Shown here: in pieces, positions 4,434-23,258 of the stretch
Position numbering within the stretch: the first letter of the stretch is position 1
Layout: the number at the start of each line of letters is the position of its first letter
From: Sedimenticola thiotaurini
Lineage (GTDB): Bacteria > Pseudomonadota > Gammaproteobacteria > Chromatiales > Chromatiaceae
Assembly: GCF_001007875.1 (NCBI RefSeq)
Contig: NZ_CP011413.1
Coordinates: 1 to 33,340 of the forward strand
Length of the DNA stretch: 33,340 nt
Direction: 5' to 3'
Position numbers and translations under genes: made by a program
Notes under the pieces: model-generated
What the model saw: the letters and a program-made list of their open reading frames with translations, nothing else
Told to the model about the DNA's origin: nothing
Databases searched by the model: none

Positions 4434-6299
4434 TTAACGCTCCTTGTCATGAGATTTACCCGAATGGGTTTCGGTGTTGATGCGAGAACCCAAACGCACA
4501 CCACGCAGCGCTTGGGCATTTTTGGTATCAACCGGCTTCACCAGGTACTCCCCGGCCTTCTCGAACAGCGCCACCATCGGGCCGCCCTTGGTGCTTCGAA
4601 GCCCCCGATAGATCGCCTCGCCAGAATCTTCCTGTGGGCGATAGCGTCGGTGGGGAAGGACGTCGGATACTTTACCTGCGGTAGTGTTACGCGAAGCAAT
4701 AAAGGCCTGTACCGGGTCAGTCCAGTTCGTGGTTTTCACATGTGAAACTTTTTCCGCTTCCAGATCCGGGTTGGTGAACGACACATCCATATTGAGACGC
4801 CCGGCGACCGCCGCCGCCTGGCGCTGGAACTCATTACTGCCCTTGAGCCGTAGATTCTTACCGAATTGGTTGCGAGCCATCCGCAACGCGGCCTCAATGG
4901 TCTTGTCATCGAACCGCTCGCCAACCCGTATCCGCTTGCCTTCATCGACGACCTGATGCTTACCGAGAAAATAGGTCACGTCGCCGTTACGACTGACCTT
5001 GTAGGTGAAAGACGGGAAAAACGAGGGCTCTGCAGCAGGATTACCCTCGACATAGGACGCACCGGGTTGGTCGCTACGGGGTTTTACGCGCCGTAGCGCA
5101 GCCAGGGCATCACTATTGCCCTGTTCGCTCTGTTCACGCAGAAAATCAGGCCAGGATTGTGACCGGTGCGCCGTTCTAACCGCCTCTCGCCGTTTAGCAA
5201 ACTCACTCTTGATCGACTCCTGCTTTCCCAGTCGCTCCATGCGCAAAACAGAATACTCGGCCCGTTTCTTCGGGCCTCGCAGGTCTCTGCGCTTTTTGAG
5301 GGCGGCCCGTTTGACCTGGTGTTCCTTCCGGAGCACACCATAAGCCTTGGATAGCTCAATAGAGAGCCGCTTCAGTTCTTTCTGTCGATCAGCGGCGATC
5401 GATGCCTGCCGATCCTTATAGGTCTTCCATAGTGCGTTCGCCGGCGTCTTGGCGAATGGCTTGGGTTCATAGCGCTTAGCCTGGGCGGGAGGTTTAGCGG
5501 TGATCACAGGCTCCTGATAGTCGCCCAAGCGCTTGGTCAACTCACCCTTGGACAAGGACCGGCTAACCTTAGAAGCGCGGATAGAAAGGTGATGATCGGA
5601 CTTGACCCGGATCACAAACCCGGCCCCACGAGGGGCGATCTCAAGACCGTACTCATCGAGCGCCTGGTGCAGTTGCTCCCAGTTCGGTTTCGGTCGCTCC
5701 ATCAGAGCGACCAAGCGCTGGCTTGGCTCACCCTTGACCCAGGACTGAAAGGATTCCTGCCCCTGCTGCGCCTCGAAATCCTGAGCCCTGGCTGAAACAC
5801 GCTCCGCCTCCGGATCACCCATATCCACGATCAGGCCATGCCGCTGCTCCAGCTCCCGACACGCGGCTTGTAGCAGGTGATAATCCCTATAGGGCGTGAT
5901 GTTTCTCAGCGTCTCAGGGTGGACCTTATTGATGGCTATGTGGATATGCAGGTGATCGGTATTGTCGTGGACAGCAGCCAATCGCTGATGGTCTCCCATC
6001 CCCAGCGCATCGGCCAATGTCTGTTCGATATCGTCTAGCTGGTCCCGTGCCGGACGCTCGCCCTCATGGAATGAGGCGATCAGATGATAGGTCTTGTCAG
6101 ACTTTGATCTGGTGTTGAGCGCCTGGGTTGCCTCGATCTCCTTGATCGCCAATTCCATTTCGCCATCCTCTGCTAGGCAGTTCGTAAAGTGGGAATATAT
6201 TAGCTTTTCTCCATCGTGTTGTGAATCCGCAATATAGCGCGCCAATTGCTGAAAACTGGATTTCCCATCGGATCGGCGATTGGAGCGCTTCGCTATCAC
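4434..6299 (-). CDS. traI: TraI relaxase (MOBP) with LPD7-like region
   Basis: 621 residues. This is the DNA-nicking relaxase that attaches covalently to the 5' end at nic and pilots the transferred strand. Motif I tyrosine is Y22 in LARYIADSQ, exactly the position of RP4 TraI Y22, and it is followed by HFTNC. Motif II serine is S76 in LIASFHEGE. Motif III is HDNTDHLHIHIAINKVHP (111-128), with metal-binding H118 and H120. The middle (about 300-380) is charged and helical. Residues about 430-520 (YKVSRNGDVTYFLGKHQVVD onward) resemble the LPD7 domain of large polyvalent plasmid proteins. RP4 TraI is about 732 residues, so this one is shorter. It overlaps traJ by 4 nt. One copy of the TTTCACATGTGAAA palindrome lies inside the gene at 4734-4747. 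Confidence 0.97.
   Translation of the reverse strand: MIAKRSNRRSDGKSSFQQLARYIADSQHDGEKLIYSHFTNCLAEDGEMELAIKEIEATQALNTRSKSDKTYHLIASFHEGERPARDQLDDIEQTLADALGMGDHQRLAAVHDNTDHLHIHIAINKVHPETLRNITPYRDYHLLQAACRELEQRHGLIVDMGDPEAERVSARAQDFEAQQGQESFQSWVKGEPSQRLVALMERPKPNWEQLHQALDEYGLEIAPRGAGFVIRVKSDHHLSIRASKVSRSLSKGELTKRLGDYQEPVITAKPPAQAKRYEPKPFAKTPANALWKTYKDRQASIAADRQKELKRLSIELSKAYGVLRKEHQVKRAALKKRRDLRGPKKRAEYSVLRMERLGKQESIKSEFAKRREAVRTAHRSQSWPDFLREQSEQGNSDALAALRRVKPRSDQPGASYVEGNPAAEPSFFPSFTYKVSRNGDVTYFLGKHQVVDEGKRIRVGERFDDKTIEAALRMARNQFGKNLRLKGSNEFQRQAAAVAGRLNMDVSFTNPDLEAEKVSHVKTTNWTDPVQAFIASRNTTAGKVSDVLPHRRYRPQEDSGEAIYRGLRSTKGGPMVALFEKAGEYLVKPVDTKNAQALRGVRLGSRINTETHSGKSHDKER
4734..4747. repeat. TTTCACATGTGAAA palindrome, copy 1 (parS/operator-like)
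   Basis: Perfect 14-bp palindrome followed by CTTTTT, within the traI coding sequence. Identical 14-mers occur at 11161, 13523 and 17044, with a one-mismatch copy at 23245. All share the longer oriented consensus TTTTCACATGTGAAACTTT. It resembles chromosomal parS (half site GTTTCAC) but has two extra central bases. It is probably bound by the ParB/KorB-like protein encoded at 11655-12668, which is an inference. Confidence 0.75.
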
Positions 6300-6637
6300 A
6301 GGGCCTTAACCTTCTTCTTGAGCTCACGCTGTGTGTTCTCGATATCGCGCAGCAGGGCGCGTATATCGGGAACCAGGTCCTTCTCGGCCCCCTTGGCCTG
6401 CAGCCAGTGCTTGAGCAATCCGCCCAGTCGCCCCAGGTCGGCATTGACGCGCAGCAGCTCAAGGATCGCCTGCTGATCCAGGGTGCTGGTCGGTTCGACA
6501 CCGGTCACCAGGTCCCTGATCAGGGATGCGACGGAGGGATAGCTGAAGGCCTTGGCCTTGCGCTCTGCTTCCTCGAACTCTTCTGGAAAAAAACGGATCG
6601 GGTAATGCTTCGTCCGTTGTCTCTTCTCACTTCCCAT
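6296..6637 (-). CDS. traJ: TraJ-like oriT-recognition protein
   Basis: 113 residues from the ATG at 6637, chosen because GGAGG lies 9 nt upstream; a longer frame back to 6682 lacks this. The N-terminus (TKHYPIRFFPEEFEEAERKAKAF) looks like a ribbon-helix-helix DNA-binding region. The middle reads LRVNADLGRLGGLLKHWL, closely matching ARINGDLGRLGGLLKLWL of RP4 TraJ as I remember it. In RP4, TraJ binds the inverted-repeat arm next to nic and recruits TraI. It is transcribed away from oriT and overlaps traI by 4 nt. A possible promoter on the minus strand, TTGCAA with TATAGG 16 nt on, lies in oriT around 6777-6750. Confidence 0.92.
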   Translation of the reverse strand: MGSEKRQRTKHYPIRFFPEEFEEAERKAKAFSYPSVASLIRDLVTGVEPTSTLDQQAILELLRVNADLGRLGGLLKHWLQAKGAEKDLVPDIRALLRDIENTQRELKKKVKAL

Positions 6638-6690
6638 AGGCGGTAGCCTCCAAGCCTCGCAGAGCAGGATTACGTTGAGCACGGTAGTGC

Positions 6691-6760
6691 GAATAAGGGT
6701 GCATTTGTGGCCCGCCGACTTGTTCGCGGTGTTACAAATGCCTATCCTGCCCTATATCTA
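6691..6760 (+). other. oriT: oriT with RP4-type nic site
   Basis: The core CCTATCCTGCCC at 6741-6752 is the RP4-type nic sequence; cleavage is expected between G6749 and C6750. An inverted repeat GCATTTGT (6701-6708) / ACAAATGC (6734-6741) sits upstream, and its right arm ends exactly 8 bp before nic, the spacing I recall for the RP4 TraJ-binding arm. GAATAAGGG at 6691-6699 also matches the RP4 oriT. The arms themselves differ from RP4, suggesting that TraJ specificity has changed. With this polarity the traK-L-M side would enter the recipient first and traJ-I last. Confidence 0.93.
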
Positions 6761-7270: not shown

Positions 7271-8011
7271 ATGGCAATAGCACACTTCACCATGCAAGGA
7301 AAAGGCGGGATTGGTAAGACCTTTGTTGCTGCGATATTAGCGCAATATATTAGCAGTACTTTAGATGAAAACGGGAAACTGGCAGTGGTCGATACTGACC
7401 CCGTGAACGCCACGCTTTCGCAATACAACGCCTTCGAGGTTGAGCACCTGGCGATCCAAGACAAGGATTCGACCCGAATCAATGAGCGGAATTTTGACCA
7501 GCTCATCGAACAAATGGCCGACGCGCCAGATACCCAATTTGTGGTTGATAACGGCGCCGCCTCTTTCGTGCCGCTCTCCAACTACTTGATCGAAAACACG
7601 GCTATCGAAATGCTCTTGGACATGGGCCGGGAGGTCTGGGTGCACCCGGTAATAACGGGCGGCCAAGGCATGCTGGACACGCTGAACGGCTTGGCTCAGC
7701 TTATCGACCAAATGCCGAAAACCGTCAAGATAGTGGTTTGGAAAAACACCTATTTCGGGGACATCGAGCAGAATGGCAAGCCGTTCGAACAAATGGCCGT
7801 CTATAAGAAGCACGCCGACCGCATTCACGCGGTCGTAGAGATCCCAAAATATTCCGCCGATACCTACGGTATCGACATCGAGCAGATGCTACAGCAAAAG
7901 CGCTCTTTCGCTCAGGCCGTGGAAAGCCCAGGATTCGGCCTGATGAGCCGCCAGCGCCTCAAGAACGCCCAGCGGGATATCTTCGAGCGCGTGAGCGAGG
8001 TATTAAGCTAG
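7271..8011 (+). CDS. traL: TraL, ParA/MinD-like ATPase of the leading operon
   Basis: 246 residues. A deviant Walker A, KGGIGKT (11-17, K16), and a following AVVDTDPVNATLSQY segment place it among ParA/MinD-type ATPases. Position after traK and length match RP4 TraL (about 241). In RP4 it is not strictly essential, and its exact job in transfer is unknown. AAGGAG lies 8 nt before the ATG. The stop overlaps the GTG of traM as TAGTG. It is distinct from the true partition ATPase at 12665-13420, which has the canonical KGGVGKST. Confidence 0.92.
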   Translation: MAIAHFTMQGKGGIGKTFVAAILAQYISSTLDENGKLAVVDTDPVNATLSQYNAFEVEHLAIQDKDSTRINERNFDQLIEQMADAPDTQFVVDNGAASFVPLSNYLIENTAIEMLLDMGREVWVHPVITGGQGMLDTLNGLAQLIDQMPKTVKIVVWKNTYFGDIEQNGKPFEQMAVYKKHADRIHAVVEIPKYSADTYGIDIEQMLQQKRSFAQAVESPGFGLMSRQRLKNAQRDIFERVSEVLS

Positions 8012-8442
8012 TGGAACTCGACAGAGAGCGGCTGATCCAGGAGGTCGCGGCTCGCTGGGGCTTGGTAATCAGTAAAGATGATCCCATCATTGGCGCTGTC
8101 GCGCTCAATGATGTGGTCCTGGATTTACACATGGGTCGCCTCTCGTCGGCCCTCGAAGACCAATCCACCAGGCTGGATTCACTCAACCAGCAACAAATAA
8201 ACGCCAGTAAGCAGATTGCCAAAAAGATCATTGGTGAGGCCCTGGCGCTGGCCACGACCGAAATCAGACAGCAGGCGAAACAAACCCAGCAGCAAACAGA
8301 TCAGGCGGTAGGTGATCAGATAAAGGCGCTCGGCGCTGCCCTGGATGACAGGGCGGCGCTCAAGCGGCAATTGATGTGGGCTTGGTCTACGGCGGGATTT
8401 CTGGGGTTACTGCTGGTAGTGGTACTTCTTATGGTGGCGTAA
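8011..8442 (+). CDS. traM: TraM-like membrane-anchored transfer protein
   Basis: 143 residues beginning with GTG at 8011, overlapping the traL stop. RP4 TraM is about 145 residues and occupies the same place. The central part (about 45-110) is rich in Gln, Ala and Leu and looks like a coiled coil (QQQINASKQIAKKIIGEALA). The C-terminus has a single membrane segment (about 120-142, TAGFLGLLLVVVLLMVA). The function of the family is unclear; it is encoded with the oriT-binding proteins, and the tail would hold it in the inner membrane. Confidence 0.88.
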   Translation: MELDRERLIQEVAARWGLVISKDDPIIGAVALNDVVLDLHMGRLSSALEDQSTRLDSLNQQQINASKQIAKKIIGEALALATTEIRQQAKQTQQQTDQAVGDQIKALGAALDDRAALKRQLMWAWSTAGFLGLLLVVVLLMVA

Positions 8443-9202: not shown

Positions 9203-9310
9203 CCACTGATACCACAGCCGCGCCGCTTCGCGTCGCCCCTCGCTTTGCCTTCGTTGGCCCTTTTAGGGGCCACTCCGGCAGTCTCAGGCACTGGGCTGTG
9301 GAATCCGTGG
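9203..9310. repeat. 108-bp element bounded by imperfect 17-bp inverted repeats, with inner hairpin
   Basis: The ends 9203-9219 and 9294-9310 are inverted repeats matching at 15 of 17 positions (both contain CCACAGCC on one strand). Inside is a shorter hairpin, GGCCC (9256-9260) / GGGCC (9267-9271). It fills the gap between two convergent genes and may act as a bidirectional terminator; it lacks a long T run. A small mobile (MITE-like) or REP-like origin is an alternative. Confidence 0.5.
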
Positions 9311-9321
9311 ACAGCCGTGTG

Positions 9322-11085
9322 CTACCGGCCCAGGTCGTGCCCCTTCTCATTACTGTCCGACTTCTGGTTAGGCTCGATCTTCTTTACCCTTTTGTCCGCC
9401 GCCTCTTGTTCCCGATCCGGTTGCTGGGAAATGGTTAGATCCATTCCTATCAGCTCATTGCCGGGATCTTGGAAATCATCGGCCCGGTGTGCGATCAGGG
9501 TATTGTCTGCCACCTGCTGATAGATGAATCGCTCATCAGCATCTACGATTTCACCACTGTACTGATAATCCGGCTTGGCAGGCCAGATCGTCGCCCCTTT
9601 CTCCTCGGCCACCTGGTTAAGATATTTCTCAGTTAGCTCGGCATATGGGCCATCGGCACGTTTCTGCATACGATCCATAATCGCATCCCGATCCATATCC
9701 GTAGAGGCCCAATCGTGGTCGGAAAATTCAGAAAGGCCCGCCTCCAGGGCCTCCATCATCCGATCCACCTCCATCAAGGCAATCCGGATATCCTCTAGGT
9801 TTCCGGATCGGATTGCATTCTCCACGACCAGCGAAGATTGAACGTCAGTGGACTCCATGAGTTCACTTATTTTCTCTTCCAGCGACTCCTGCTCTGGGGT
9901 ATCAGGGGCAAGGTTTAATTCCATAGGGTCAACTCCTTGTGTAGATCCACGGGTAAAGAAAGCCGCCTGCTGCGGCTCTGGGAACGCTATTTCATAGCGT
10001 GTGCTGCGGCCCTGGCCATGAGAGACCAAAGCCCCAATATCGCGCAGCTCGCCCAAGTCCCGAGTCGCGGTAGACTGGGAGCACTTGGTAATAGTCATGT
10101 AGTTTTTTCCGGACAGGCCACCGGCGAAGCCCTTTCGACCCTCCGCGAAAACGCGCGCTATGGCCTTGGCCTGGCGGTCGTTGAGATGATCGGCGAAGGC
10201 CTCATAAAAACGAGCCTTGTTCAGCACAAAATCAACCTCTTCCCGGGCAACATCCTGGGCTTTGTTCACGGTGGCAGTGAAGAAATCGATAAAAGGATTG
10301 ATATTCAAGCTAGCGCCCTTACTGGATTGGGCCAGTGCTGCATAGTAGTTCTTGCGGTCCTCGTTGATCGCCGTTGCCAGGCACGCAATCGTCGGTCGCC
10401 CCAGTGATTGAGAAAGCGCGTGGTCGGAAATGGCGCGCCCTACCCGCCCATTGCCATCATCAAACGGGTGTATGGACTCAAACCACAGGTGGGCGACTGC
10501 TGCTCGAATCGGGCCGGATATCTCCGGCGCTGTCGATTTTTCTGGATTGGTACTGTTGTACCAATCCAGAAAACGATCCATTTCCCCCTGCACGTCTTTA
10601 GCCGCTGGCGCTTCAAAGTGAACCTTGTAATGACCTATCGGACCGCTGACGATTTGCATGGCATCACCCCGATACATACCCCGCAACGCCAGGCTGGTTC
10701 TGTCCTCTGGACAGGCCATTGTCTGCCAGCCACCAAGTAATTCATGGGTGAGCGGCTGATCCCATTTTTTTCGAACATCTACCATCAGCGCCGCCGCACC
10801 TGCTGCCTTTTCATCGGAATTCGGCGACGCCACCTCTTTGCCGATCAGGTGCAGCAATGAGGAACGCACAGAATCACGGTCCAGGGTTTCACCCTCGATA
10901 GCGCTGGTGGTGATCGCCTCCGAAAGCATGAGGTCAATGACGGTATCAGACTGATAACGTTCGGCCATCCCCTCGATCCTGCCGGAGAGCCGTTCCGCCG
11001 AACGATAGAAGGCTTCGACTCGCTCCTTGAACAGAGACGGGTCGTACTCAAAATTGGGCCAATCAGGGTGTTGCCAGTTCCACAT
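9322..11085 (-). CDS. fic: Fic-domain protein with winged-helix-like and KfrB-like C-terminal regions
   Basis: 587 residues from the ATG at 11085; the frame also allows a TTG at 11091. Residue numbers here count from that TTG, two higher than from the ATG. Fic enzymes usually transfer AMP from ATP to a target protein. The catalytic loop is complete: HPFDDGNGRVGR (208-219) with H208. An inhibitory-helix motif T62-xxx-E66-G67 (in TTSAIEGE) precedes it, the layout of self-inhibited class II Fic proteins. The N-terminus (MWNWQHPDWPNFEYD) is typical of family members with the extra N-terminal domain. Residues about 320-395 look like a winged helix (TKCSQSTATRDLGELRDIGA). Residues about 505-560 (YSGEIVDADERFIYQQVADN, then TLIAHRADDF) resemble the KfrB domain of plasmid proteins. 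Its promoter is covered by an inverted repeat, so it may regulate itself. Confidence 0.88.
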   Translation of the reverse strand: MWNWQHPDWPNFEYDPSLFKERVEAFYRSAERLSGRIEGMAERYQSDTVIDLMLSEAITTSAIEGETLDRDSVRSSLLHLIGKEVASPNSDEKAAGAAALMVDVRKKWDQPLTHELLGGWQTMACPEDRTSLALRGMYRGDAMQIVSGPIGHYKVHFEAPAAKDVQGEMDRFLDWYNSTNPEKSTAPEISGPIRAAVAHLWFESIHPFDDGNGRVGRAISDHALSQSLGRPTIACLATAINEDRKNYYAALAQSSKGASLNINPFIDFFTATVNKAQDVAREEVDFVLNKARFYEAFADHLNDRQAKAIARVFAEGRKGFAGGLSGKNYMTITKCSQSTATRDLGELRDIGALVSHGQGRSTRYEIAFPEPQQAAFFTRGSTQGVDPMELNLAPDTPEQESLEEKISELMESTDVQSSLVVENAIRSGNLEDIRIALMEVDRMMEALEAGLSEFSDHDWASTDMDRDAIMDRMQKRADGPYAELTEKYLNQVAEEKGATIWPAKPDYQYSGEIVDADERFIYQQVADNTLIAHRADDFQDPGNELIGMDLTISQQPDREQEAADKRVKKIEPNQKSDSNEKGHDLGR

Positions 11086-11112: not shown

Positions 11113-11160
11113 AGTAAACAGAGATTTTTGATTAGATTAAGCTGAGAAATCGCCTCAGAT

Positions 11161-11174
11161 TTTCACATGTGAAA
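11161..11174. repeat. TTTCACATGTGAAA palindrome, copy 2
   Basis: Perfect copy followed by CTTTTC. It contains the stop codon of the 84-residue gene and lies at the downstream end of the parA-parB operon, 50 bp from the fic operator. Confidence 0.75.
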
Positions 11175-11417
11175 CTTTTCAAAATCCGGATCGTGCTTTT
11201 TTAACCACTCTGCCGCTGCCAGCGCCGCCCATAATGGCGGCTTGCCGGATGCTGCCCAGTTGGTGAGGGTCTGCCCGGGAATATCGGTTCGCGGGCGGAT
11301 CAAGCGGCTCTTGACCGCAAGCCGTGTCAGCTCCGAAGCCGCCTGAGAAGGCGTCCCCTGAAAACCGGCTCGATATGCCCTTAATACCAGGCGGCGTTGA
11401 TCCATTGGTACGCTCAT
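11163..11417 (-). CDS. Hypothetical protein, last gene of the par operon
   Basis: 84 residues. Basic N-terminal half (DQRRLVLRAYRAGFQGTPSQ) followed by a segment that could form a helix-turn-helix (IPGQTLTNWAASGKPPLWAA). The C-terminal end, FHM, is encoded by the TTTCACATGTGAAA palindrome, which also supplies the TGA stop. I do not recognise a family. It starts 10 nt after the 76-residue gene, with a poor ribosome site, and is probably co-transcribed with parA and parB. A small DNA-binding accessory protein is possible but not shown. Confidence 0.6.
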   Translation of the reverse strand: MSVPMDQRRLVLRAYRAGFQGTPSQAASELTRLAVKSRLIRPRTDIPGQTLTNWAASGKPPLWAALAAAEWLKKHDPDFEKFHM

Positions 11418-11427
11418 AATGTTCTAG

Positions 11428-11658
11428 TCAGGGATGAATCTGATCTTTCAGTTTGGCGAGTACGGCATGAAGCTCCTGGATCTCCTCTTCACCCATGCTC
11501 GTTAAGCCATAATCATAGGCCGCTAAAATAGCCGCCTCCTCTTCTGCGGTGAGCTCAACCCTCCGCTCGCCGCCTTCGACCATATTTAGATACCTCTCCA
11601 TAATCATAACGTGTGCCTCTAAAAAGGCGGTGCCTTCTGGCACCGCCTCTTTATTCAT
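11428..11658 (-). CDS. Small acidic hypothetical protein after parB
   Basis: 76 residues, rich in Glu and Ala, and predicted mostly helical (VELTAEEEAAILAAYDYG and EEEIQELHAVLAKLKDQ). The ATG at 11658 overlaps the parB TGA as ATGA, so it is translationally coupled to parB. No family recognised. Coupling suggests a role with the partition proteins, perhaps as a modulator, but that is inference from position only. Confidence 0.65.
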   Translation of the reverse strand: MNKEAVPEGTAFLEAHVMIMERYLNMVEGGERRVELTAEEEAAILAAYDYGLTSMGEEEIQELHAVLAKLKDQIHP

Positions 11659-12668
11659 GAAATATGGTTCATCACTCGCTTGAGCTCGGCACGGTCAGCA
11701 AAATCAATTCGCAGATAACCGCCCTCCCCCTCTTCGTGCAGCGCTACGTTAACGCCCAAAAGACTAGAGAGATTCCTGGTCAATAGATCGATGGCTTGTA
11801 GCTCGGAGCCATCTTCACACGGCCCGCCCTCTTCCTCTGTAGATTCGGGTTCACTGCCCACCACCCGATCCAGCCGCTTAGGCTGATTCTCCCTCTTGGG
11901 GGCTGCCGGTAAGGGCTCCTGATCCTCGGATTGCCCTCCGCTTGGCTCAGTTACAGACTCTTGCACGGATTGCGCCTGAGCAGTTTCCTTCGGGGGGTCT
12001 TTCGGTTCTTCAACCCTGCCCTTTGCAATATCAACCGCCTGACGAACCATCGACCGGTTGATATCCGTCCGGCGTTGCAGTCGCTCAAAAGCTTCCGCGT
12101 CCAGCTTATGCAGATCCACCAGCATCGAGAGCGTTTCCGGATCTCGGGTCGCCCCGCTTTCCACAAATGGCGCTACCAATTCCAGACCTTTGGCGATCTT
12201 GCGACGTACCGACACCCACGCTGCTTTTTTCCCCAGCGCCTTGGCAACCTCACTGGCCTTACCCAGCTCCTTGACCAGGCGAGCCACTGCCTCGGCTTCT
12301 TCCAGGATCGGTACATTCTCACGATCCAGGTTTTCGCAGAGCTGTACCGCCAGCAAAGAACCCTCAAACTCCCGAATAACAACCGGGATGGTATCGAGGT
12401 TGGCTAGCTGTGCAGCTCTCCATCGCCGTTCGCCAGTGACCACAAAATAACCGTTTCCTTCGGGATCGGGTCGCACCACGATAGGCTGAATCACGCCTTG
12501 AGCAGCAATCGAAGCGGCGAGACTTTCGAGGCCTTCTGGATCGATGGTTTTACGTGGCTGCAGGGGATCACGCTCTATCAGTTCAACAGCTACTTCGGAT
12601 GGAGCACCGGTCCCAGCCTGGTCCGCCTCATCCATCAAGCTGGCAAGTGAAGAGATTCCTTTTTTCAT
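11655..12668 (-). CDS. parB: ParB/KorB-like partition protein
   Basis: 337 residues. The N-terminal ParB/Sulfiredoxin-like domain includes the nucleotide-binding box GERRWRA (79-85). A helix-turn-helix region follows at about 135-200 (GKASEVAKALGKKAAWVSVR). A low-complexity, Glu/Pro-rich linker (about 218-285) leads to a C-terminal dimerisation-like end (LGVNVALHEEGEGGYLRIDF). ParB proteins bind centromere palindromes, act with ParA to segregate the plasmid, and in IncP plasmids (KorB) also repress transcription from many operators. The TTTCACATGTGAAA palindromes are natural candidates for its sites. Start and parA stop overlap by 4 nt. Confidence 0.93.
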   Translation of the reverse strand: MKKGISSLASLMDEADQAGTGAPSEVAVELIERDPLQPRKTIDPEGLESLAASIAAQGVIQPIVVRPDPEGNGYFVVTGERRWRAAQLANLDTIPVVIREFEGSLLAVQLCENLDRENVPILEEAEAVARLVKELGKASEVAKALGKKAAWVSVRRKIAKGLELVAPFVESGATRDPETLSMLVDLHKLDAEAFERLQRRTDINRSMVRQAVDIAKGRVEEPKDPPKETAQAQSVQESVTEPSGGQSEDQEPLPAAPKRENQPKRLDRVVGSEPESTEEEGGPCEDGSELQAIDLLTRNLSSLLGVNVALHEEGEGGYLRIDFADRAELKRVMNHIS

Positions 12669-13420
12669 TTTGTAGCCCTCTCAATAACGGCGGTGACAAC
12701 GTGACGCATTTCTTTGGCTGCCATAGCAGCACTCTGGCCTCGGGTGTATTTCCATACAGGATGGCCGTTATCGATAGCATCGGAAACGGCCACTCGTGAC
12801 GGTAATATGTACGGAAGCACCTTATCCCCCAGCACCTGGCGCAGCTCGGACAGCCTGGCGGTTTGTGTCTTGCTTCGCTGGTTAACCAGGTTGGGCAGGA
12901 CGCCCAGATTTTTCAGGCGTGGGTTGAATTTCTTTTTGATGGTAATAATGGTTCGCTGCAATTCGGTTAATCCATCTATGGAGTAACCATTAAGCGCCAT
13001 TGGCGATACCACGGAATCCCCAGCAATCAGGGCAGCCAGCAGACGACGCCCCAAATTCGGCGGGGTGTCGATAATGCACAAATCGTAATCCTTTTCCCAT
13101 CTACGCAGATGCGCGGCAGGGTGTTCGATCGTGTCCAGCGGGAGTCCTTCAACATCATTTATCGCCATGTCTGCCGGAACAATAGCGAGTCGGTCGCTAA
13201 TAGCCAGTGGCGCACCACAAGATTTCTTTTTAAACAGATGGGAAGCGTGTGCACCGGTTGGCGCAATCTCTTCGATAAAGGTATGAGTAGAATTCGCCTG
13301 GCCGTCGAAATCGACCAGCAGGACGCGAAGCCCCTGTTCTACAGCACCCCAAACCAAATGGACAGCAACGGTGGATTTACCGACCCCGCCTTTTTGGTTC
13401 GCAATAACCAACGTTTTCAT
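12665..13420 (-). CDS. parA: ParA partition ATPase
   Basis: 251 residues. Walker A KGGVGKST (10-17) follows the first strand MKTLVIANQ. VLLVDFDGQANS carries the A' motif, and LCIIDTPPNLG the Walker B. There is no N-terminal helix-turn-helix, so this is a short (type Ib/IncC2-like) ParA that would not repress its own promoter alone. AGAGG precedes the ATG. The promoter region holds two operator candidates (13478-13499 and 13523-13536), and the leader shares 20 bp with those of two other plasmid genes. Confidence 0.95.
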   Translation of the reverse strand: MKTLVIANQKGGVGKSTVAVHLVWGAVEQGLRVLLVDFDGQANSTHTFIEEIAPTGAHASHLFKKKSCGAPLAISDRLAIVPADMAINDVEGLPLDTIEHPAAHLRRWEKDYDLCIIDTPPNLGRRLLAALIAGDSVVSPMALNGYSIDGLTELQRTIITIKKKFNPRLKNLGVLPNLVNQRSKTQTARLSELRQVLGDKVLPYILPSRVAVSDAIDNGHPVWKYTRGQSAAMAAKEMRHVVTAVIERATK

Positions 13421-13477: not shown

Positions 13478-13499
13478 AAGTGCTAATATATTAGCACTT
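13478..13499 (-). promoter_or_regulatory. 22-bp perfect palindrome over the parA promoter
   Basis: The palindrome has the core GCTAATATATTAGC at 13482-13495 and four further symmetric bases on each side. On the minus strand its centre offers -10 sequences (TAATAT or TATATT), 16-19 bp after TTGAAA. The same core with one change occurs over the -10 of trbB at 18156-18169, and a weaker form upstream of trbA at 17620. A shared repressor, perhaps the TrbA-like protein, is likely. Confidence 0.7.
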
Positions 13500-13522: not shown

Positions 13523-13536
13523 TTTCACATGTGAAA
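13523..13536. repeat. TTTCACATGTGAAA palindrome, copy 3 (upstream of parA)
   Basis: Perfect copy in a T-rich setting (runs of T on both sides of the consensus), about 100 bp upstream of the parA start and 24 bp upstream of the 22-bp palindrome. Position beside parA-parB makes it the best candidate centromere or ParB operator. Confidence 0.8.
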
Positions 13537-13909: not shown

Positions 13910-13912
13910 CGA

Positions 13913-16006: not shown

Positions 16007-16030
16007 GCGAGAGTAACAACGCTAGCAGAA

Positions 16031-16072: not shown

Positions 16073-16083
16073 AAGAGGCCGCA

Positions 16084-16800: not shown

Positions 16801-16824
16801 GGCACATAGAATGAGAGAGGCAAG

Positions 16825-17031
16825 GTGGACTCCTTAAAGAACCTGGCGCGAATGATCGCGGAAAATCCAAACAACCAAAAGATATACGACAAGATGGATT
16901 ACACTTTGGACAAGGAAATGTTTGTGAAGCGTTACGGGAAACAGATAGCGAAACTGCTATCCGGACTGATTTCCGAAAAAGTGGGGCAGGAGGCCGCTCG
17001 CATGGTCTGGGAGCAAAAAAAGAGGGGCTAA
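16825..17031 (+). CDS. Small hypothetical protein after rep
   Basis: 68 residues beginning with GTG at 16825, preceded by GAGAGG 4 nt upstream; an ATG at 16852 is an alternative start. Basic and helical (DKEMFVKRYGKQIAKLLSGL, EKVGQEAARMVWEQKKRG), no membrane segment. It begins 24 nt after the rep stop and is probably co-transcribed with it. No family recognised. Confidence 0.6.
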   Translation: MDSLKNLARMIAENPNNQKIYDKMDYTLDKEMFVKRYGKQIAKLLSGLISEKVGQEAARMVWEQKKRG

Positions 17032-17043
17032 GCACCCCTAAAG

Positions 17044-17057
17044 TTTCACATGTGAAA
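17044..17057. repeat. TTTCACATGTGAAA palindrome, copy 4
   Basis: Perfect copy. The extended consensus reads on the minus strand here (GTTTTTCACATGTGAAACTT). It lies between the convergent ends of the 16825 gene and the small membrane protein gene, close to rep. Confidence 0.75.
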
Positions 17058-17060
17058 AAC

Positions 17061-17201
17061 TCACCCCGGCAGTAACGTCCGCCAGAGACGCCGCAGAAAG
17101 GCGCCCAGGGTGATCCAGACTGCACCAAGGATGATGCCCAGCACAAAGGCTACCGCATACGCGAGAGCGAAAGCAGCGGCTAAGGAAAGCAAGAAGTACA
17201 T
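17061..17201 (-). CDS. Small membrane protein (46 residues)
   Basis: From the ATG at 17201, with a GGGGGG ribosome site 5 nt upstream, a 46-residue frame ends at TGA 17063-17061. The product begins MYFLLSLAAAFALAYAVAFV and continues with another hydrophobic stretch (LGIILGAVWITLGAF) before the basic end RRLWRTLLPG. It is one long or two short membrane helices with a positive C-terminus. No family recognised. It lies 46 nt after the 17248-17454 gene on the same strand, probably in one operon, with a hairpin between. Confidence 0.6.
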   Translation of the reverse strand: MYFLLSLAAAFALAYAVAFVLGIILGAVWITLGAFLRRLWRTLLPG

Positions 17202-17216
17202 AATGATCCCCCCTAT

Positions 17217-17236
17217 GGCCGGGCCTCAGCCCGGCC
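17217..17236. terminator. Strong hairpin between two small genes
   Basis: GGCCGGGC and GCCCGGCC form a perfect 8-bp stem with the loop CTCA. There is no T run on the minus strand side, so it may reduce read-through into, or protect, the message of the small membrane protein rather than end transcription fully. On the plus strand it is followed by TGATTGTTTGGTT. Confidence 0.45.
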
Positions 17237-17247
17237 TGATTGTTTGG

Positions 17248-17454
17248 TTAGTCCTCTGCCGGCTCGGCAGGGACCCGCTCCTTGGGCGGCAGCAAGACGA
17301 TTTCACCGTTTATCGGCGTGGCAAAGAGGCGAACCTGAAATCCGCCCTTGCTGTTGGGCCAGGCTGCGCCGACCCGGTTGAAGTAACTTTTTTCGTCACT
17401 ACCGGACACGGTATAGGCGATTAGGCTTGGCTTGTTGGTGCTTGCTTCTGACAT
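17248..17454 (-). CDS. Conserved small plasmid protein of unknown function
   Basis: 68 residues from the ATG at 17454 (AGGAGAG upstream); a longer frame to 17529 is less likely. The pattern IAYTVSGSDEKSYFNRVGAA followed by WPNSKGGFQVRLFATPINGE and IVLLPPKE is one I recall from many proteobacterial plasmids and integrative elements, always as a short uncharacterised protein. It is mostly beta-strand by appearance. It is divergent from the TrbA-like gene. Confidence 0.75.
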   Translation of the reverse strand: MSEASTNKPSLIAYTVSGSDEKSYFNRVGAAWPNSKGGFQVRLFATPINGEIVLLPPKERVPAEPAED

Positions 17455-17619
17455 GTTACGCTCTCCTGCGTTGTGTGAATTGACGTCCTGTAAAGCCGGG
17501 TAAATAAACGATGACAAAGGGCCAGGCAAGTGGATGGTGCGACCCGCAGCGAAGCGAGGACAGGGTAACGCAGCCTGGGCACAGCATTCCCTTTTTATCG
17601 AAAGCGACCGGCTAAAGTC

Positions 17620-17634
17620 CTATTATATTCCCAC
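17620..17634 (+). promoter_or_regulatory. Operator-like element upstream of the trbA-like gene
   Basis: CTATTATATTCCCAC matches CTAATATATTACCAC at the trbB promoter (18157-18171) at 13 of 15 positions. TATTAT at 17621-17626 could be a -10, though no good -35 is seen. It suggests the TrbA-like protein controls its own gene. Confidence 0.45.
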
Positions 17635-17717
17635 TACTGGAAAAAGAAACTGGAAGCGAAAGCCCGAGCAAGGCAAAATAAGCACATACACGGAAGTAAC
17701 AATCTAAAAGGGAACTG

Positions 17718-18056
17718 ATGAGTGACATGCCAACAGGGCTGAACGATAGTCCGCAAAACATCGTCCAGCGCCTAACAAGAGTGGCCCGTGAAAGGATGAA
17801 CAACCAAAACAATAGCGGGATCAGCAAAAGTGCACGGGCGATCTTAGCAAAGAACCTACTCCGACTCAGAAAAGCCCACGGATACGGCCAGCAAGAGCTT
17901 GCAGACCTGTCAGGACTATCCAAATCATTCATCGGTGGGCTGGAAAACGCACGGATGAATGTCAGCCTGGATAACCTGGAAAGCCTCAGCCGAGTTCTTG
18001 GGGTAGAGGTGTTTGTGCTGCTTATACCCCCCGACGACCCAGACCCCGACAAGTAA
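17718..18056 (+). CDS. TrbA-like XRE-family transcriptional regulator
   Basis: 112 residues. Residues about 42-98 form an XRE/Cro-type helix-turn-helix (LRKAHGYGQQELADLSGLSK, SFIGGLENARMNVSLDNLES). The C-terminus is short and acidic. AAGGGA precedes the ATG. In RP4, the similarly sized TrbA lies immediately before trbB and represses the transfer genes, so position, size and fold support the same role. Candidate operators GCTAATATATTA at parA and trbB, and a weaker one before this gene, would couple transfer to maintenance. Confidence 0.85.
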   Translation: MSDMPTGLNDSPQNIVQRLTRVARERMNNQNNSGISKSARAILAKNLLRLRKAHGYGQQELADLSGLSKSFIGGLENARMNVSLDNLESLSRVLGVEVFVLLIPPDDPDPDK

Positions 18057-18137
18057 GCCAATCCACGCCGAACAGAATTCCTTACCAATATGCTAGGGCA
18101 ATATGCCCTACGCCTCGAAGATAGATAAAAACAGGGC

Positions 18138-18169
18138 TTTACAACTGCCAAAAGAGCTAATATATTACC
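18138..18169 (+). promoter_or_regulatory. trb operon promoter with overlapping operator
   Basis: TTTACA (18138-18143), a 17-bp spacer and TATATT (18161-18166) give a good promoter before trbB. The -10 is embedded in GCTAATATATTACC (18156-18169), which differs by one base from the core of the perfect palindrome at the parA promoter. A repressor binding here would shut off the whole mating-pair operon. Confidence 0.7.
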
Positions 18170-18195
18170 ACCAGAATTAAAGGTGGAAATTAGCT

Positions 18196-19146
18196 ATGGA
18201 ACGGCTCGCTAGACTGACCCGCAAGTTACAAACCGAACTCGGAAGCGATATTGTCTCCGCTCTTAAAGACGGCTCCGTCACTGACATATACCTGAACGAC
18301 GATGGCGCGGTGTGGGTACACCGCGCCGGAGAACCGAAGAAGGTTCTCACGAAGATGAGCGCCACACAGGCGGACAACCTGATTCGCACCGTGGCCTCTA
18401 TGTCCGGGGGCATGATCACCGACAAGAAACCCGTGGTAGAAGCAAGGCTCCCCAACGGCGAGCGCTTTATCGGGGACATGGCCCCAATCTCACGACACCC
18501 GACATTCTGTATCCGGAAGCCCGCACGAGTCGTCTACACCCTCGAAAGCTATGTCGAAAACGGCATGATGACCGAGGCACAACACCAGGCCATCAAACAG
18601 GCCGTCACAAACCGTAAAAATATACTGGTCGTCGGCGGCACGGGCTCAGGAAAAACCACGCTTACCAACGCCATTCTGGGCGCGATAGCCGAGATCACCC
18701 CGGAAGACCGAATCCTGATTTTCGAGGACACCCAGGAGCTGCAGTGCAGCGCTCCGGATCGCTCATTCAAGCTGACCAGCGATGAAGTGGATATGCGAGC
18801 ACTGCTACGCGCCAGTATGCGCCAGATGCCGGACCGGATCGTAGTGGGCGAGGTGCGCGGCGCAGAGGCGGAGGTGGTGCTCAAGGCATGGAATACCGGT
18901 CACGAGGGTGGCGTGGTCACACTGCATGCAAATTCAGCAAGGGAGGGCGTGGAGAAGTTCCAGGAATACGTGGAAGAAGGATTGCCGGGTACTGACAAAC
19001 GAAGGGCCATCGCTTCAGCGGTGGACCTGGTTTGTTACATGCCCAAGCGCAAGAAAGGAGTGCCACCCAGGCTTGAAGAGGCGGTATGGCTCGAAGGGCT
19101 AAAGGACGGCGAATATTTTTTTACAACGCACAGGAAAGAAGGATGA
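18196..19146 (+). CDS. trbB: TrbB, VirB11-like ATPase
   Basis: 316 residues (RP4 TrbB about 320). Hexameric cytoplasmic traffic ATPase that works at the base of the type IV secretion channel. Walker A is GGTGSGKTT (147-155, K153). ILIFEDTQELQCSAPDRSF is the Asp box. MRQMPDRIVVGEVRGAEAEV is the Walker B region, and the His box HEGGVVTLHANSA follows. The start has GGTGG about 10 nt upstream. First gene of the trb operon; its stop overlaps trbC by 4 nt. Confidence 0.97.
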   Translation: MERLARLTRKLQTELGSDIVSALKDGSVTDIYLNDDGAVWVHRAGEPKKVLTKMSATQADNLIRTVASMSGGMITDKKPVVEARLPNGERFIGDMAPISRHPTFCIRKPARVVYTLESYVENGMMTEAQHQAIKQAVTNRKNILVVGGTGSGKTTLTNAILGAIAEITPEDRILIFEDTQELQCSAPDRSFKLTSDEVDMRALLRASMRQMPDRIVVGEVRGAEAEVVLKAWNTGHEGGVVTLHANSAREGVEKFQEYVEEGLPGTDKRRAIASAVDLVCYMPKRKKGVPPRLEEAVWLEGLKDGEYFFTTHRKEG

Positions 19147-19463
19147 ATCTGAAAAATACAAAGATACTGATGGTCGCTACGGCGGTACTGCTGTTCTTTA
19201 TCGCAGGTGAAGCCCTTGCCGGTACGGCCACAGGTCTGCCGTGGGAAACCCCGCTGCAAACCCTGACCAACTCCATCACCGGACCTGTTGCGCTGGCTAT
19301 CTCGCTGATCGCCATCGTTGTCGGTGGCGGCATGCTGATCTGGGGCGGTGAAATCAACGATTTCGCCCGCAAGATGATTCTGATCGTGTTGGTGATCGCG
19401 CTCATCGTCATGGCCACCAATGTTCTGACCACACTGTTCGGTGCAACTGGCGCGGTGGTGTAG
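19143..19463 (+). CDS. trbC: TrbC pilin precursor
   Basis: 106 residues from the ATG at 19143, overlapping trbB by ATGA. A signal peptide ends at about A26 (AGEALA before GTATG). Two membrane helices follow at about 47-68 and 77-95 (GPVALAISLIAIVVGGGMLI; MILIVLVIALIVMATNVL). It is the major pilus subunit. In RP4 the C-terminus is trimmed and TraF cyclises the pilin; there the mature end reads FFGRG before AEIA. Here the protein ends FGATG-AVV, so only three residues would follow the ligation point and the long C-terminal propeptide of RP4 is missing. Confidence 0.95.
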   Translation: MNLKNTKILMVATAVLLFFIAGEALAGTATGLPWETPLQTLTNSITGPVALAISLIAIVVGGGMLIWGGEINDFARKMILIVLVIALIVMATNVLTTLFGATGAVV

Positions 19464-19466
19464 CCC

Positions 19467-19790
19467 ATGTCTCAGGAACTGCAGACCGTGCCGATCCGCA
19501 GTTCTTTGACTCGGCCCCGGTTAATAGCCGGGGCCGAGAGAGAGCTGTTTTTGTTCCTGCTGTTGATCTGCACATCACTGGTGTTCGTGTTGATGAGCCT
19601 GCCAGCCGCAATAGCTGGCGTGATCATCTGGAGCGGCGGCTATTGGGCACTACGTGAAATGGCGAAGGGCGACCCGATGATGAGCAAGATCTTTTTCCGC
19701 CATATCCGCTATCGGCCATTTTACCGGGCCAGATCATCCAGGACGGTGATCGATCAGAAAAAAGGAAAGAAAAAGCAATGCTACAGCTAA
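19467..19790 (+). CDS. trbD: TrbD, VirB3-like membrane protein
   Basis: 107 residues with the conserved start PIRSSLTRPRLIAGAERELF, followed by one or two close membrane segments (LFLLLICTSLVFVLMSLPAA, IAGVIIWSGGYWALREMAK) and a basic tail with RHIRYRPFY. VirB3-type proteins sit at the inner membrane beside the TrbE ATPase. It starts 3 nt after trbC and overlaps trbE by 13 bp. Confidence 0.95.
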   Translation: MSQELQTVPIRSSLTRPRLIAGAERELFLFLLLICTSLVFVLMSLPAAIAGVIIWSGGYWALREMAKGDPMMSKIFFRHIRYRPFYRARSSRTVIDQKKGKKKQCYS

Positions 19791-22201
19791 AGGCATTCCG
19801 CACCAAACACAAGGGCTTGCCCGACCTGCTGAACTATGCCGCCGAAATTGAGGATGGCGTCATCCTTGGCAAGGACGGGGCACTCATGGCCGGTTGGATC
19901 TATCGCGGTGACGATCAATCCTCCGCCATGCCCATGCAACGCAATGCGGTCGCCGCTCATGTCAACTCTGCACTATCGATGCTCGGCAGCGGCTGGATGA
20001 TACACAATGACTGCATCCGGACACCCGTAGCCGCCTATGCCAAGCGCGAACTGTCACACTTTCCTGACCCGATAAGCAAACTGATCGATGAAGAGCGCCG
20101 AGCGCTGTTTGAAGAGCAAGGCAGCTACTACGAGTCTCTGCACGTACTGATTGTCACCTATCTGCCGCCAACCACCGGCAGATCTGCCGTCAAGGCGATG
20201 ATGTACGAGGAAGACGGCAAGCGGAAAAAGGCGACAGCAACCATCGAGCTGGACCGCTTTAAGCGGACCATTTCAGAGCTTGAAACCCGACTCGGTGCCC
20301 TGGTCAGCCTGGAACAGCTGAATGGCCATCCGGTAGAAACCGAAGACGGCAGGACCGAGATTCAGGATGAACTCCTCGGCTACATCCACTGGGCGCTAAC
20401 GGGCATCAGACAGCCGATCAAGCTGCCCCCGGTACCGATGTACCTGGATGCCGTTATCGGCGGTCAGGATTTTGTCGGCGGTGTGGCCCCACGAGTCGGG
20501 AATCAGCATATCCGGGTGGTAGCGATTGAAGGATTCCCCCAGGAGTCCTATCCGGGCATTCTGGACGCCCTGGATCAGATTCCGATCCCATACCGCTGGT
20601 CTACGCGGTTTATCTTCCTGGACGCCTACGAGGCCTCCGCAGAACTGGAAAAATACCGCAAAGCCTGGGAGCAAAAAGAGCGCTCTCTGCGCGACCAAAT
20701 ATTTAACACACAAAGCGGGCGGGTTGATCTGGATGCCCATTCGATGAAGAAAGACACCATCGATGCCCAGGCAGAGGCCAATAGCGGAATCGTGCGATTC
20801 GGCTATTACACTTCGGTAGTCGTTCTCATGGATGAGAACGAGGAAAGGGTGGAGGATACCGCCAAGACTGTAGCCCAGGCAATTCGGAATCTCGGGTTTG
20901 CATCCCGCATCGAGACGATCAACGCCGTCGAGGCCTGGCTTGGAAGTCTGCCCGGTCATGGGGTACAGAATATCCGGCGACCGCTGCTGCACACCTTGAA
21001 CCTGGCGCACATGCTGCCCCTCTCGTCGGTCTGGGCAGGCGAGGCTAACAACCCCTGTCCGTTCTACCCGGCTGGATCACCGCCGTTACTCTACGGAGCC
21101 ACGGACGGCTCCACCCCCTGGCGATTCAATATCCACGTGCATGACGTGGGCCATACACTGATATTGGGACCAACCGGGTCGGGTAAATCAACCAAGATGG
21201 TCCTGATGATGGCGCAGTTTCTGCGCTATCCGAAGGCCTCGGTCTTTGCGTTCGACAAGGGCTATTCAGCCTACGTCATGTGCAAGGCGACCGGAGGGGA
21301 TCATTACGACCTGGCAGGCGACGACACCAGTATTGCGTTCGCCCCGTTTTCGCATGTGAAATCGGATCGTGACATGGCTTGGGCAAGAGAGTGGGTCGAA
21401 AAGATCGCCGAGCTGCAAGGTGTGAAACTGCAGCCGGAACACCGCAAGGAAATCCATCGGGCGCTGACCTTACTAAAAGAGTCAGATCACAAAACACTCA
21501 CCGCCTTTCACGCGACGTTGCAACACCAGAAGCTCAAGGATGTTATTGAGCCCTACACTATCGACGGGCCTTATGGCCAGTTGTTCGATGCGGAAACCGA
21601 CAGCCTGAAAGAGGGCCGATTCCAGGTCTTTGAAATGGAACAGTTGATGGGCATGGGGCAACAGGCCGTCCTGCCGGCGCTGGATTATCTGTTTTATCGC
21701 ATTGAGAAACAGCTACAGGGCCAACCAACGTTGATCGTCCTCGATGAGGCCTGGGTGATGTTCGAGCACCCGGTATTCCGGGAGAAGATCCGCGAATGGC
21801 TCAAAGTGCTGCGTAAAGCCAATGCAGCGGTGGTGATGGGCACCCAATCCCTTTCCGATGTGGCCGGTAGCGGCATCCTCGATGTGATCAACGAAAGCTG
21901 TCTAACAAAAATTTTTCTCGCCAACCCGCTGGCTCACGAAGACGAAGCAACCGCGCTTTACCGCAACCTGGGCCTGAACGGAACCCAGATCGATATCGTC
22001 AGTTCGATGGTGCGCCGGCGCGACTACTACTACACATCACCACTCGGACGGAGACGCTACCGGCTCGACCTCGGACCTGTGGCGCTCTCCTTTGTCGCCG
22101 TGTCCGGAAAGGAAGAGGTCGCCGCTGCACGGCATGTCATGGAGAAGCACGGGCAGGGCTGGCAAATGCGCTGGCTGGAACAGAAAGGAGCAAGGCAGTG
22201 A
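19778..22201 (+). CDS. trbE: TrbE, VirB4-like ATPase
   Basis: 807 residues, the usual size for TrbE. It is the largest ATPase of the channel and is needed for pilus assembly and substrate transfer. Walker A is GPTGSGKS (464-471, K470) and Walker B is LIVLDEAW (652-659, D656-E657). The N-terminal CagE/VirB4 region precedes these. A one-mismatch form of the TTTCACATGTGAAA palindrome, TTTCGCATGTGAAA, lies at 21348-21361, but it lacks the CTTT flank. The stop overlaps the trbJ GTG. Confidence 0.97.
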   Translation: MLQLKAFRTKHKGLPDLLNYAAEIEDGVILGKDGALMAGWIYRGDDQSSAMPMQRNAVAAHVNSALSMLGSGWMIHNDCIRTPVAAYAKRELSHFPDPISKLIDEERRALFEEQGSYYESLHVLIVTYLPPTTGRSAVKAMMYEEDGKRKKATATIELDRFKRTISELETRLGALVSLEQLNGHPVETEDGRTEIQDELLGYIHWALTGIRQPIKLPPVPMYLDAVIGGQDFVGGVAPRVGNQHIRVVAIEGFPQESYPGILDALDQIPIPYRWSTRFIFLDAYEASAELEKYRKAWEQKERSLRDQIFNTQSGRVDLDAHSMKKDTIDAQAEANSGIVRFGYYTSVVVLMDENEERVEDTAKTVAQAIRNLGFASRIETINAVEAWLGSLPGHGVQNIRRPLLHTLNLAHMLPLSSVWAGEANNPCPFYPAGSPPLLYGATDGSTPWRFNIHVHDVGHTLILGPTGSGKSTKMVLMMAQFLRYPKASVFAFDKGYSAYVMCKATGGDHYDLAGDDTSIAFAPFSHVKSDRDMAWAREWVEKIAELQGVKLQPEHRKEIHRALTLLKESDHKTLTAFHATLQHQKLKDVIEPYTIDGPYGQLFDAETDSLKEGRFQVFEMEQLMGMGQQAVLPALDYLFYRIEKQLQGQPTLIVLDEAWVMFEHPVFREKIREWLKVLRKANAAVVMGTQSLSDVAGSGILDVINESCLTKIFLANPLAHEDEATALYRNLGLNGTQIDIVSSMVRRRDYYYTSPLGRRRYRLDLGPVALSFVAVSGKEEVAAARHVMEKHGQGWQMRWLEQKGARQ

Positions 22202-22992: not shown

Positions 22993-23198
22993 AAAACATA
23001 GCCCTCCCCATAATCATGCTGTGTACAACCGTGGCAATGACCGGCTGTGGCGAGAATGATACCCAGGTCAACCAAATCACCATTGAGGCCAAACCAGAAC
23101 CGGCGCAAGAGAAAGAAAAACAACCCAGACGGCGCTCTGGTGTTGTTGTGGGCAATGAAACTCAATATGACCCCGGTAACTTATCGGGCCGTAGATAA
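22989..23198 (+). CDS. trbK: TrbK-like entry-exclusion lipoprotein
   Basis: 69 residues. The signal peptide ends in a lipobox, VAMTGC, with lipidated C20. The mature part is short, charged and Pro/Lys-rich, then ends SGVVVGNETQYDPGNLSG plus RR. In RP4 the small lipoprotein TrbK prevents entry of the same plasmid into a cell that already has it. Position between trbJ and trbL matches Ti-type operons. It overlaps trbJ by ATGA. The C-terminal peptide is 15 of 18 identical to that of TrbJ. Confidence 0.85.
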   Translation: MKNIALPIIMLCTTVAMTGCGENDTQVNQITIEAKPEPAQEKEKQPRRRSGVVVGNETQYDPGNLSGRR

Positions 23199-23244
23199 TG
23201 ATCGAGGCAGGTATTTTAGAAAAGTGCAAGGCGATCTACGAAAG

Positions 23245-23258
23245 TTTCACATATGAAA
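23245..23258. repeat. TTTCACATATGAAA, one-mismatch palindrome copy 5
   Basis: On the minus strand the surroundings read TTTTTCATATGTGAAACTTT, matching the extended consensus of the other copies except for one base. It lies in the 72-bp gap between trbK and trbL, the only sizeable gap in the operon, and covers the upstream candidate start of trbL. Confidence 0.6.

Follow-up and report, generated by a model that had tools for sequence, protein, structure and literature searches.

For the IncC plasmid R55, the available excerpts of PMC10954446 (the article in which a full-text literature search found TTTCACATGTGAAA) describe a 22-bp inverted repeat that is present in 14 copies, TTTCACATGTGAAA being its fully conserved core, and that in one copy overlaps the parA promoter. 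According to the same excerpts, purified IncC ParB bound three probes in gel shifts (two R55 sites and one SGI1 repeat), binding was lost upon a 4-bp central insertion, and SGI1, which carries two copies of the repeat, exploits the partition system of the plasmid. The passages of PMC12421886 at hand report six dispersed sites like TTTCTCGCATGCGAGAAA in NAH7 and a ParB that activates transfer genes, and those of PMC11790492 portray KorB as a cytidine triphosphate (CTP) clamp that can slide up to 1.5 kb and that KorA locks at operators next to core promoters. Here we analyse a 33,340-nt stretch of Sedimenticola thiotaurini DNA (NZ_CP011413.1; hereafter the window), a small conjugative plasmid in which the palindrome TTTCACATGTGAAA recurs; it makes up the entire contig C2 of a genome of 3.96 Mb in two contigs. 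We consider it very probable that these palindromes are dispersed parS sites of the plasmid's own ParABS system.

Palindromic sites in the window

A motif scan recovered exact copies of TTTCACATGTGAAA at 4734, 11161, 13523 and 17044 and a one-mismatch copy (TTTCACATATGAAA) at 23245, the five copies claimed by an earlier, sequence-only reading of this DNA; all five are real, but that reading had overlooked another one-mismatch copy (TTTCGCATGTGAAA) at 21348. Two further copies have three mismatches, and the eight matches at ≤3 mismatches compare with a mean of 1.06 and a maximum of 4 in 100 shuffles. The common flanked form that had been claimed was borne out by the asymmetric 19-mer TTTTCACATGTGAAACTTT, which is exact at 4733 (+), 11160 (+), 13522 (+) and 17040 (−) and has one mismatch at 23241–23259 (−); its shuffle mean was 0.00, and dinucleotide shuffles gave none at ≤3 mismatches. 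The copy at 21348 lacks the flanks common to the other five sites. The non-randomness asserted for the 14-mer also holds, with approximately 0.0001 exact copies expected under a first-order model. TTTCACATGTGAAA is the only 14-mer occurring at least four times in the window, it ranks first among the window 14-mers in a palindrome enumeration without a preset motif, and its four exact copies on C2 stand against none on the chromosomal contig C1.

Core 1 (4734..4747, +; 19-mer 4733–4751) lies inside the relaxase/TraI gene, while core 2 (11161..11174, +; 19-mer 11160–11178) lies over the stop codon of the final par-operon open reading frame (ORF), at a distance of 70 bp upstream from the 5′ end (11091) of the minus-strand fic-kfrB ORF. 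Predicted promoters adjoin core 3 (13523..13536, +; 19-mer 13522–13540), which precedes parA by ~100 bp, whereas core 4 (17044..17057, −; 19-mer 17040–17058) separates the rep operon from a 46-codon ORF that converges on it, both facing the site with their 3′ ends. The one-mismatch core 5 (23245..23258, −; 19-mer 23241–23259) sits just before trbL, whose start is more likely at 23271 because AAGGA, as read by eye, precedes this position. These coordinates agree with the placement given earlier (traI, both ends of the par operon, rep and before trbL). The weak sixth copy (21348..21361, +), inside the trbE/virB4 gene, is possibly without function.

The par operon

Gene anatomy was derived from Pfam matches on 33 distinct window ORFs. 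Adjacent parA (12665..13420, −; a Walker-type ATPase) and parB (11655..12668, −) encode proteins with ParA and ParB_N domains respectively, the latter, our predicted site binder, also containing KorB (PF08535, E 8.6e-6) and ParB_C domains. This ParB has structurally solved ParB and KorB relatives and contains the stretches QPR, GERRWRA and ENLDR, which we take to be the CTP-binding stretches of CTP-dependent ParBs. A 76-aa ORF (11428..11658, −) and an 84-aa ORF without a Pfam match (11163..11417, −), the last of the operon, complete the par region. As judged from the DNA alone, the replicon thus combines a parAB pair with centromere-like repeats, one of them near parAB. The host chromosome encodes a separate ParB and has two copies of another parS-type repeat, TGTTCCACGTGGAACA, presumably the known chromosomal-type parS consensus.

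Site and ParAB travel together among relatives

A ParB search at E 1e-36 over 210 genomes of the same order yielded five contigs besides the window, one of which (G516:C2), to judge by its identical coordinates, is Thioflavicoccus mobilis pTHIMO01, so that host and Thioflavicoccus belong to one family; the ParBs of these six contigs are 44–100% identical. TTTCRCATGYGAAA is exact in five of the six (window, 5 copies including 21348; pTHIMO01, 8; G418C14, 5; G514C16, 2; G514C28, 1), with ≤0.002 copies expected per contig, and the sixth, G512C380, has a one-mismatch copy (TATCGCATGCGAAA) upstream of parA. The motif is hence present in relatives that carry the same ParB, exactly in 5/6 contigs and in 6/6 at one mismatch. 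G514C16, G514C28 and G512C380 are short contigs. The top 14-mer palindrome of G512C380, CGGCGAATTCGCCG, was rejected as a dispersed site, being a tandem array instead; positions 1–430 of this contig (L090), at the contig start, hold a CRISPR-like array of six repeats at 71–73 bp spacing.

Beyond the order, the same threshold returned the host only among 398 genomes of the phylum. At E 1e-20, 332 of 369 genomes of the class matched, G074 alone standing out besides the host. Patterns taken from stretches of the window ParB that are not conserved in relatives detected no relative in genome_contigs or viral_contigs, and when window positions 9300–20000 were compared with PLSDB for near-identical DNA, only two Thiothrix records came up, each covering 1% of the query. 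The exact 19-mer TTTTCACATGTGAAACTTT was present in three contigs of genome_contigs (two Photorhabdus and one Lentisphaera metagenome-assembled genome; by our estimate about two would be expected by chance) and in none of viral_contigs.

Unbiased enumeration returned TTTCGCATGCGAAA as the top 14-mer palindrome of pTHIMO01 and of a Nitrosospira plasmid, and TTTTACATGTAAAA as that of the Thiothrix plasmid pThsub; the same procedure, as a positive control, put the KorB OB TTTAGCSGCTAAA first among the 13-mers of two IncP-like plasmids. The site leads at length 14 in pTHIMO01 and pThsub, but 12- and 13-mers that are GC-rich or unrelated have at least as many loose matches there. Copies with the site architecture within two mismatches number 8 in pTHIMO01, 10 in pThsub and 5 in the Nitrosospira plasmid. 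A full-text literature search found neither TTTCGCATGCGAAA nor TTTTACATGTAAAA. Twelve other ParB-bearing records were scanned for TTTYRCATGYRAAA (pRA1 over its first 50 kb, pThsub over 150,000 of 151,453 bases, L049–L051 as partial records), and it occurred in three of them (pThsub, 7; Nitrosospira, 4; pRA1, 7), being absent from the remaining nine (G074C62, NAH7, Vibrio, Xanthomonas, Methylophaga, Falsirhodobacter, Eikenella, Leisingera and Aeromonas), some of which show other palindromes. The covered part of the IncA plasmid pRA1 holds seven exact cores. G074 encodes a ParB identical to that of pThsub at 315 of 328 residues, and eight exact TTTTACATGTAAAA lie within 10 kb of its contig C9 (24611–34234), where two TTTTTCATGTAAAA are also found. 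From one plasmid to another, the site variant thus shifts along with ParB. As a mark of CATG-type sites, a recognition-helix tryptophan was considered and dropped, since the pRA1 ParB has phenylalanine at that place.

Other site types were noted in these records. pThsubDNT52_1 (L041–L043) carries two ParAB pairs (88758–90572 and 111615–113365), with one ParB that by eye resembles IncA ParB and one like that of the window, as well as two site types (TTTCACATGTGAAA, two copies; TTTTACATGTAAAA, five copies); an exact TTTCACATGTGAAA at 90606 is 34 bp upstream of the parA of the IncA-like pair. In the Vibrio cholerae RFB16 plasmid (L051), seven TTTCGC(TT or AA)GCGAAA near-palindromes at 15565–21505 surround a ParB gene, with the architecture of the window sites and another central dinucleotide. 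An Aeromonas pAh2111-2-KPC stretch (L049), from a plasmid with a ParB relative, has eight copies within two mismatches of the palindrome TTGCAGTACTGCAA, a candidate for an unrelated parS.

Three backbone relatives (G452C30, G370C89 and G456C99) share a related Rep, relaxase and coupling protein with the window, while their ParA is only 26.6% identical. Identities between G452C30 and the window are 64% for TraG, 51% for the relaxase, 70% for Rep, 71% for TrbB, 68% for TrbE and 62% for TrbL, with G370C89 showing a similar picture; because G456C99 stops short of the trb genes, the similarity in TrbB, TrbE and TrbL comes from two of the three. No window-type ParB was found in the genomes of these relatives (best matches 35–37%, E 1e-30 or weaker). 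G370C89 and G456C99 have no site, and G452C30 has one, at 65185, in a segment that aligns to the rep-to-XRE region of the window (393 of 447 positions identical). From the site counts across both contig groups it follows that the site accompanies ParAB, not the replication and transfer genes, with this one exception.

Readers other than ParB

An exact core is present in three of 194 genomes of the family, namely G452, G565 and the host. The single contig of G565 holds two such cores, and the only ParB match in this genome (36%, E 5.1e-32) is at the level of chromosomal ParBs, so that the site can exist without a window-type ParB. The core at 1910600 (L101) is in a part of the chromosome where transposase genes also occur, with a perfect GCTAATATATTAGC at a distance of 28 bp. 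It lies between homologues of Rep (70%) and of the 84-aa protein (50%), the latter followed by a fic-kfrB homologue (48%). The one at 2598726 (L117) is upstream of another fic-kfrB homologue (72–74%, in two pieces) and occupies the place matching window 11161, with 14/14 bases kept and 205 of 277 positions identical. These cores may be relics of integrated plasmids, may rely like SGI1 on the ParB of another replicon, or may have another reader.

The two G565 cores would also suit a palindrome that is read by a host-encoded or other factor, or that is a selfish short repeat; we regard such an origin as highly improbable, given zero exact copies on the host chromosome, the presence of the core in just those three genomes of the family, host included, and a site variant that changes with ParB between plasmids. 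Slightly less improbable, and still very unlikely, is binding of TTTCACATGTGAAA by the 84-aa protein instead of ParB. Homologues of this protein occur in pTHIMO01, G418C14 and G514C16 and adjoin one of the G565 sites, where no window-type ParB was found. Against this, none was found at E 1e-6 in pThsub, Nitrosospira or pRA1, all of which have sites and a ParB, nor at E 1e-4 in the region of the second G565 site, and in the IncC system it is ParB that binds the core, according to the excerpts of PMC10954446.

In addition to the G565 cores, several observations weigh against parS sites served by the plasmid ParB. The sites of G074 are on another contig (C9) than its ParB (C62). G514C16 has no site ≤260 bp upstream of parA, its exact one being ~330 bp upstream, and the nearest copy upstream of the Nitrosospira parA has two mismatches and is ~400 bp away. 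The 84-aa protein likewise co-occurs with the sites in several contigs, and only three of the five strong window sites are strictly intergenic. The ParBs of the window and pRA1 are 26.6% identical, with unlike recognition helices. Moreover, IncC ParB failed to bind the 14-bp core on its own, according to the part of PMC10954446 available, and the window flanks (T...CTTT) are not those of IncC (AC...GT), for which reasons the IncC binding result is not directly transferable.

Partition and transcription control

Partition by ParABS is nevertheless well supported by comparison, and the ParB/parS assignment of the sequence-only reading stands, given the ParB_N, KorB and ParB_C domains, a site that follows ParAB, and a core equal to the IncA/IncC parS core. 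In our proposed mechanism, the window ParB would recognise TTTCACATGTGAAA along with its asymmetric flank, AAAG being on one side. As expected from its relatives, it would load at these sites as a clamp that depends on CTP, then close and spread; the plasmid, coated with ParB, would be moved by ParA. Through the copy ~100 bp upstream of parA, ParB would probably also repress the operon that encodes it, and the copies before fic-kfrB and trbL may influence these genes. A site at ≤~160 bp upstream of parA is common to the window, pTHIMO01, G418, G512 (one mismatch) and pRA1, with a degenerate one in pThsub; because several relatives share this position, autoregulation of the par operon by ParB is likely. 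Binding, clamp loading, partition and transcriptional effects are what we infer for the window system from these comparisons.

The sites could instead serve chiefly as operators for KorB-like global regulation, an idea that takes the sequence-only reading a step further: this ParB would control par, fic-kfrB and the transfer genes, with partition as a second job, and the clamp would then slide from the sites to promoters marked by a second palindrome. Such KorB-like control is plausible and compatible with partition, and we give it slightly less than an even chance of being the main role. The KorB domain of the window ParB speaks for it, as does the site near the predicted parA promoters, the only one beside a predicted promoter of the operon that it precedes. 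The NAH7 ParB, in the passages of PMC12421886 at hand, uses dispersed CATG-centred sites to influence the transcription of transfer genes, although by activation, not repression. Intergenic sites exceed the background in pTHIMO01 (7/8 against 0.18) and the first 50 kb of pRA1 (5/7 against 0.14), and number 3/5 against 0.14 in the window, where the gene list consists of ORFs chosen by us; this placement is consistent with regulation. Conversely, the Nitrosospira sites are not clearly intergenic (2/4 against 0.22; P 0.2), the 4734 site is inside traI, the 17044 site lies between convergent genes and at no predicted promoter, and the predicted promoters, called by consensus matching, are close in number to those of shuffled sequence (7 against an expected 5.3).

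The second palindrome is present as a perfect 22-bp form (AAGTGCTAATATATTAGCACTT, 13478..13499), over the −10 box of one of three overlapping parA promoter-like matches, and as GCTAATATATTACC (18156..18169), a copy of GCTAATATATTAGC with one mismatch that lies across the −10 box of a promoter-like match preceding trbB/virB11. The former is 27 bp from a ParB site and the latter 1.1 kb from that at 17044, which is within the 1.5 kb range given for KorB in the excerpts of PMC11790492. At ≤3 mismatches, GCTAATATATTAGC has five matches in the window (shuffle mean 0.90), the other three at 6191, 7328 and 7341. A perfect GCTAATATATTAGC is found in the window and in G565, with none within one mismatch in 11 other records (G452C30 beyond 60 kb being scanned for the 12-mer only). 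Its binder may be the 84-aa protein or the XRE-type protein encoded upstream of trbB. The 84-aa protein or its homologue accompanies the second palindrome in both the window and G565, and the searched stretches of G565 showed no XRE homologue. No KorA-family Pfam match was obtained among the 33 ORFs scanned; the 84-aa protein is a candidate KorA-like partner, modelled as all-helical from its single sequence at low confidence (mean predicted local distance difference test score of 63). The second palindrome hints at a KorA/KorB-like pairing with a different partner. We think it rather unlikely that this amounts to a full clamp-and-lock network, in which ParB would load at the CATG-centred sites and be halted at the GCTAATATATTAGC boxes (the parA and trbB −10) by a non-KorA partner, the 17044 site silencing the trb operon from 1.1 kb.

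Other genes of the plasmid

Pfam placed an SLT transglycosylase (279–968), a CN-hydrolase domain (869–2038), a signal peptidase (2026–2541), VirD4/TraG (2541–4433), the relaxase/TraI (4434–6299) and NikA (6296–6682) ahead of a ParA/ArsA-like ATPase below the Pfam cut-off (7271–8011) and TraM (8011–8442). Fic and KfrB domains are fused in one ORF (9322–11091, −) before the par operon, which is followed by ArdC (13913–14809) and the Rep3 initiator (16084–16800). The Rep3 gene is preceded, at 15777–15976, by seven direct repeats of iteron type (TACARATTYRCGG) that likely mark oriV. The XRE-type helix-turn-helix protein (17718–18056, +), in what we take to be a TrbA-like position upstream of trbB, precedes VirB11/TrbB (18196–19146), TrbE (19778–22201), TrbL (23253–24455), VirB8 (24460–25140) and CagX (25137–25976). 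The remainder encodes an N6 methylase (29373–30101), an integrase (30496–31137), a NotI-like restriction endonuclease (31282–32127) and an adjoining C5 cytosine methylase (32147–33325); GCGGCCGC is absent from the plasmid, which carries this endonuclease–methylase pair at 31282–33325.

Comparison with known systems

The textbook parS half-site TTTCAC is present in the window core, and chromosomal ParBs share the ParB domains of the window protein, but chromosomal parS lacks the 2-bp AT spacer and the host chromosome has TGTTCCACGTGGAACA. The earlier description of the window palindrome as a parS variant is right as regards the variant, though its core was already known as the IncA/IncC parS core (excerpts of PMC10954446).

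RK2/IncP KorB–KorA, as far as the available excerpts describe it, resembles the window in its ParB/KorB-domain protein, its dispersed operators and a partner operator beside core promoters, of which the window counterpart is predicted. It differs in the 13-bp OB TTTAGCSGCTAAA with a one-base spacer, which is not among the best window palindromes of the enumeration, and in its KorA partner. The parABR/parS-NAH system of NAH7 (IncP-9) shares, in the passages at hand, dispersed CATG-centred palindromes near par and type IV secretion system genes, a small partner protein and a ParB with a role in transfer-gene expression; it is set apart by its 18-bp site TTTCTCGCATGCGAGAAA, a KorA-family ParR and a ParB only 24.6% identical to that of the window.

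Closest is the parABS of IncA/IncC plasmids (R55, pRA1), which on the published excerpts has the identical core TTTCACATGTGAAA, dispersed copies with one at the parA promoter, a ParB with a KorB domain and a small extra gene after parB. Its flanks are AAAC/GTTT, with a conserved GT on the right, against T/CTTT in the window, and most IncC plasmids have 12–14 sites against five strong ones here. With the core in common, but neither the flanks nor a closely related ParB, the window system is, from these comparisons, not IncC parS in the strict sense.

Judged by sequence comparison, the palindromes are a real, conserved set of parS sites in a known kind of system, with an already published core. 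The site is linked more closely to the ParAB cassette than to the plasmid backbone, and the natural variants TTTCACATGTGAAA, TTTCGCATGCGAAA and TTTTACATGTAAAA, each with matching ParBs, offer material for studying the evolution of ParB specificity. The parS core known from IncA/IncC is thereby extended to a distantly related ParB, encoded by a small plasmid from another bacterial family, that of Thioflavicoccus.

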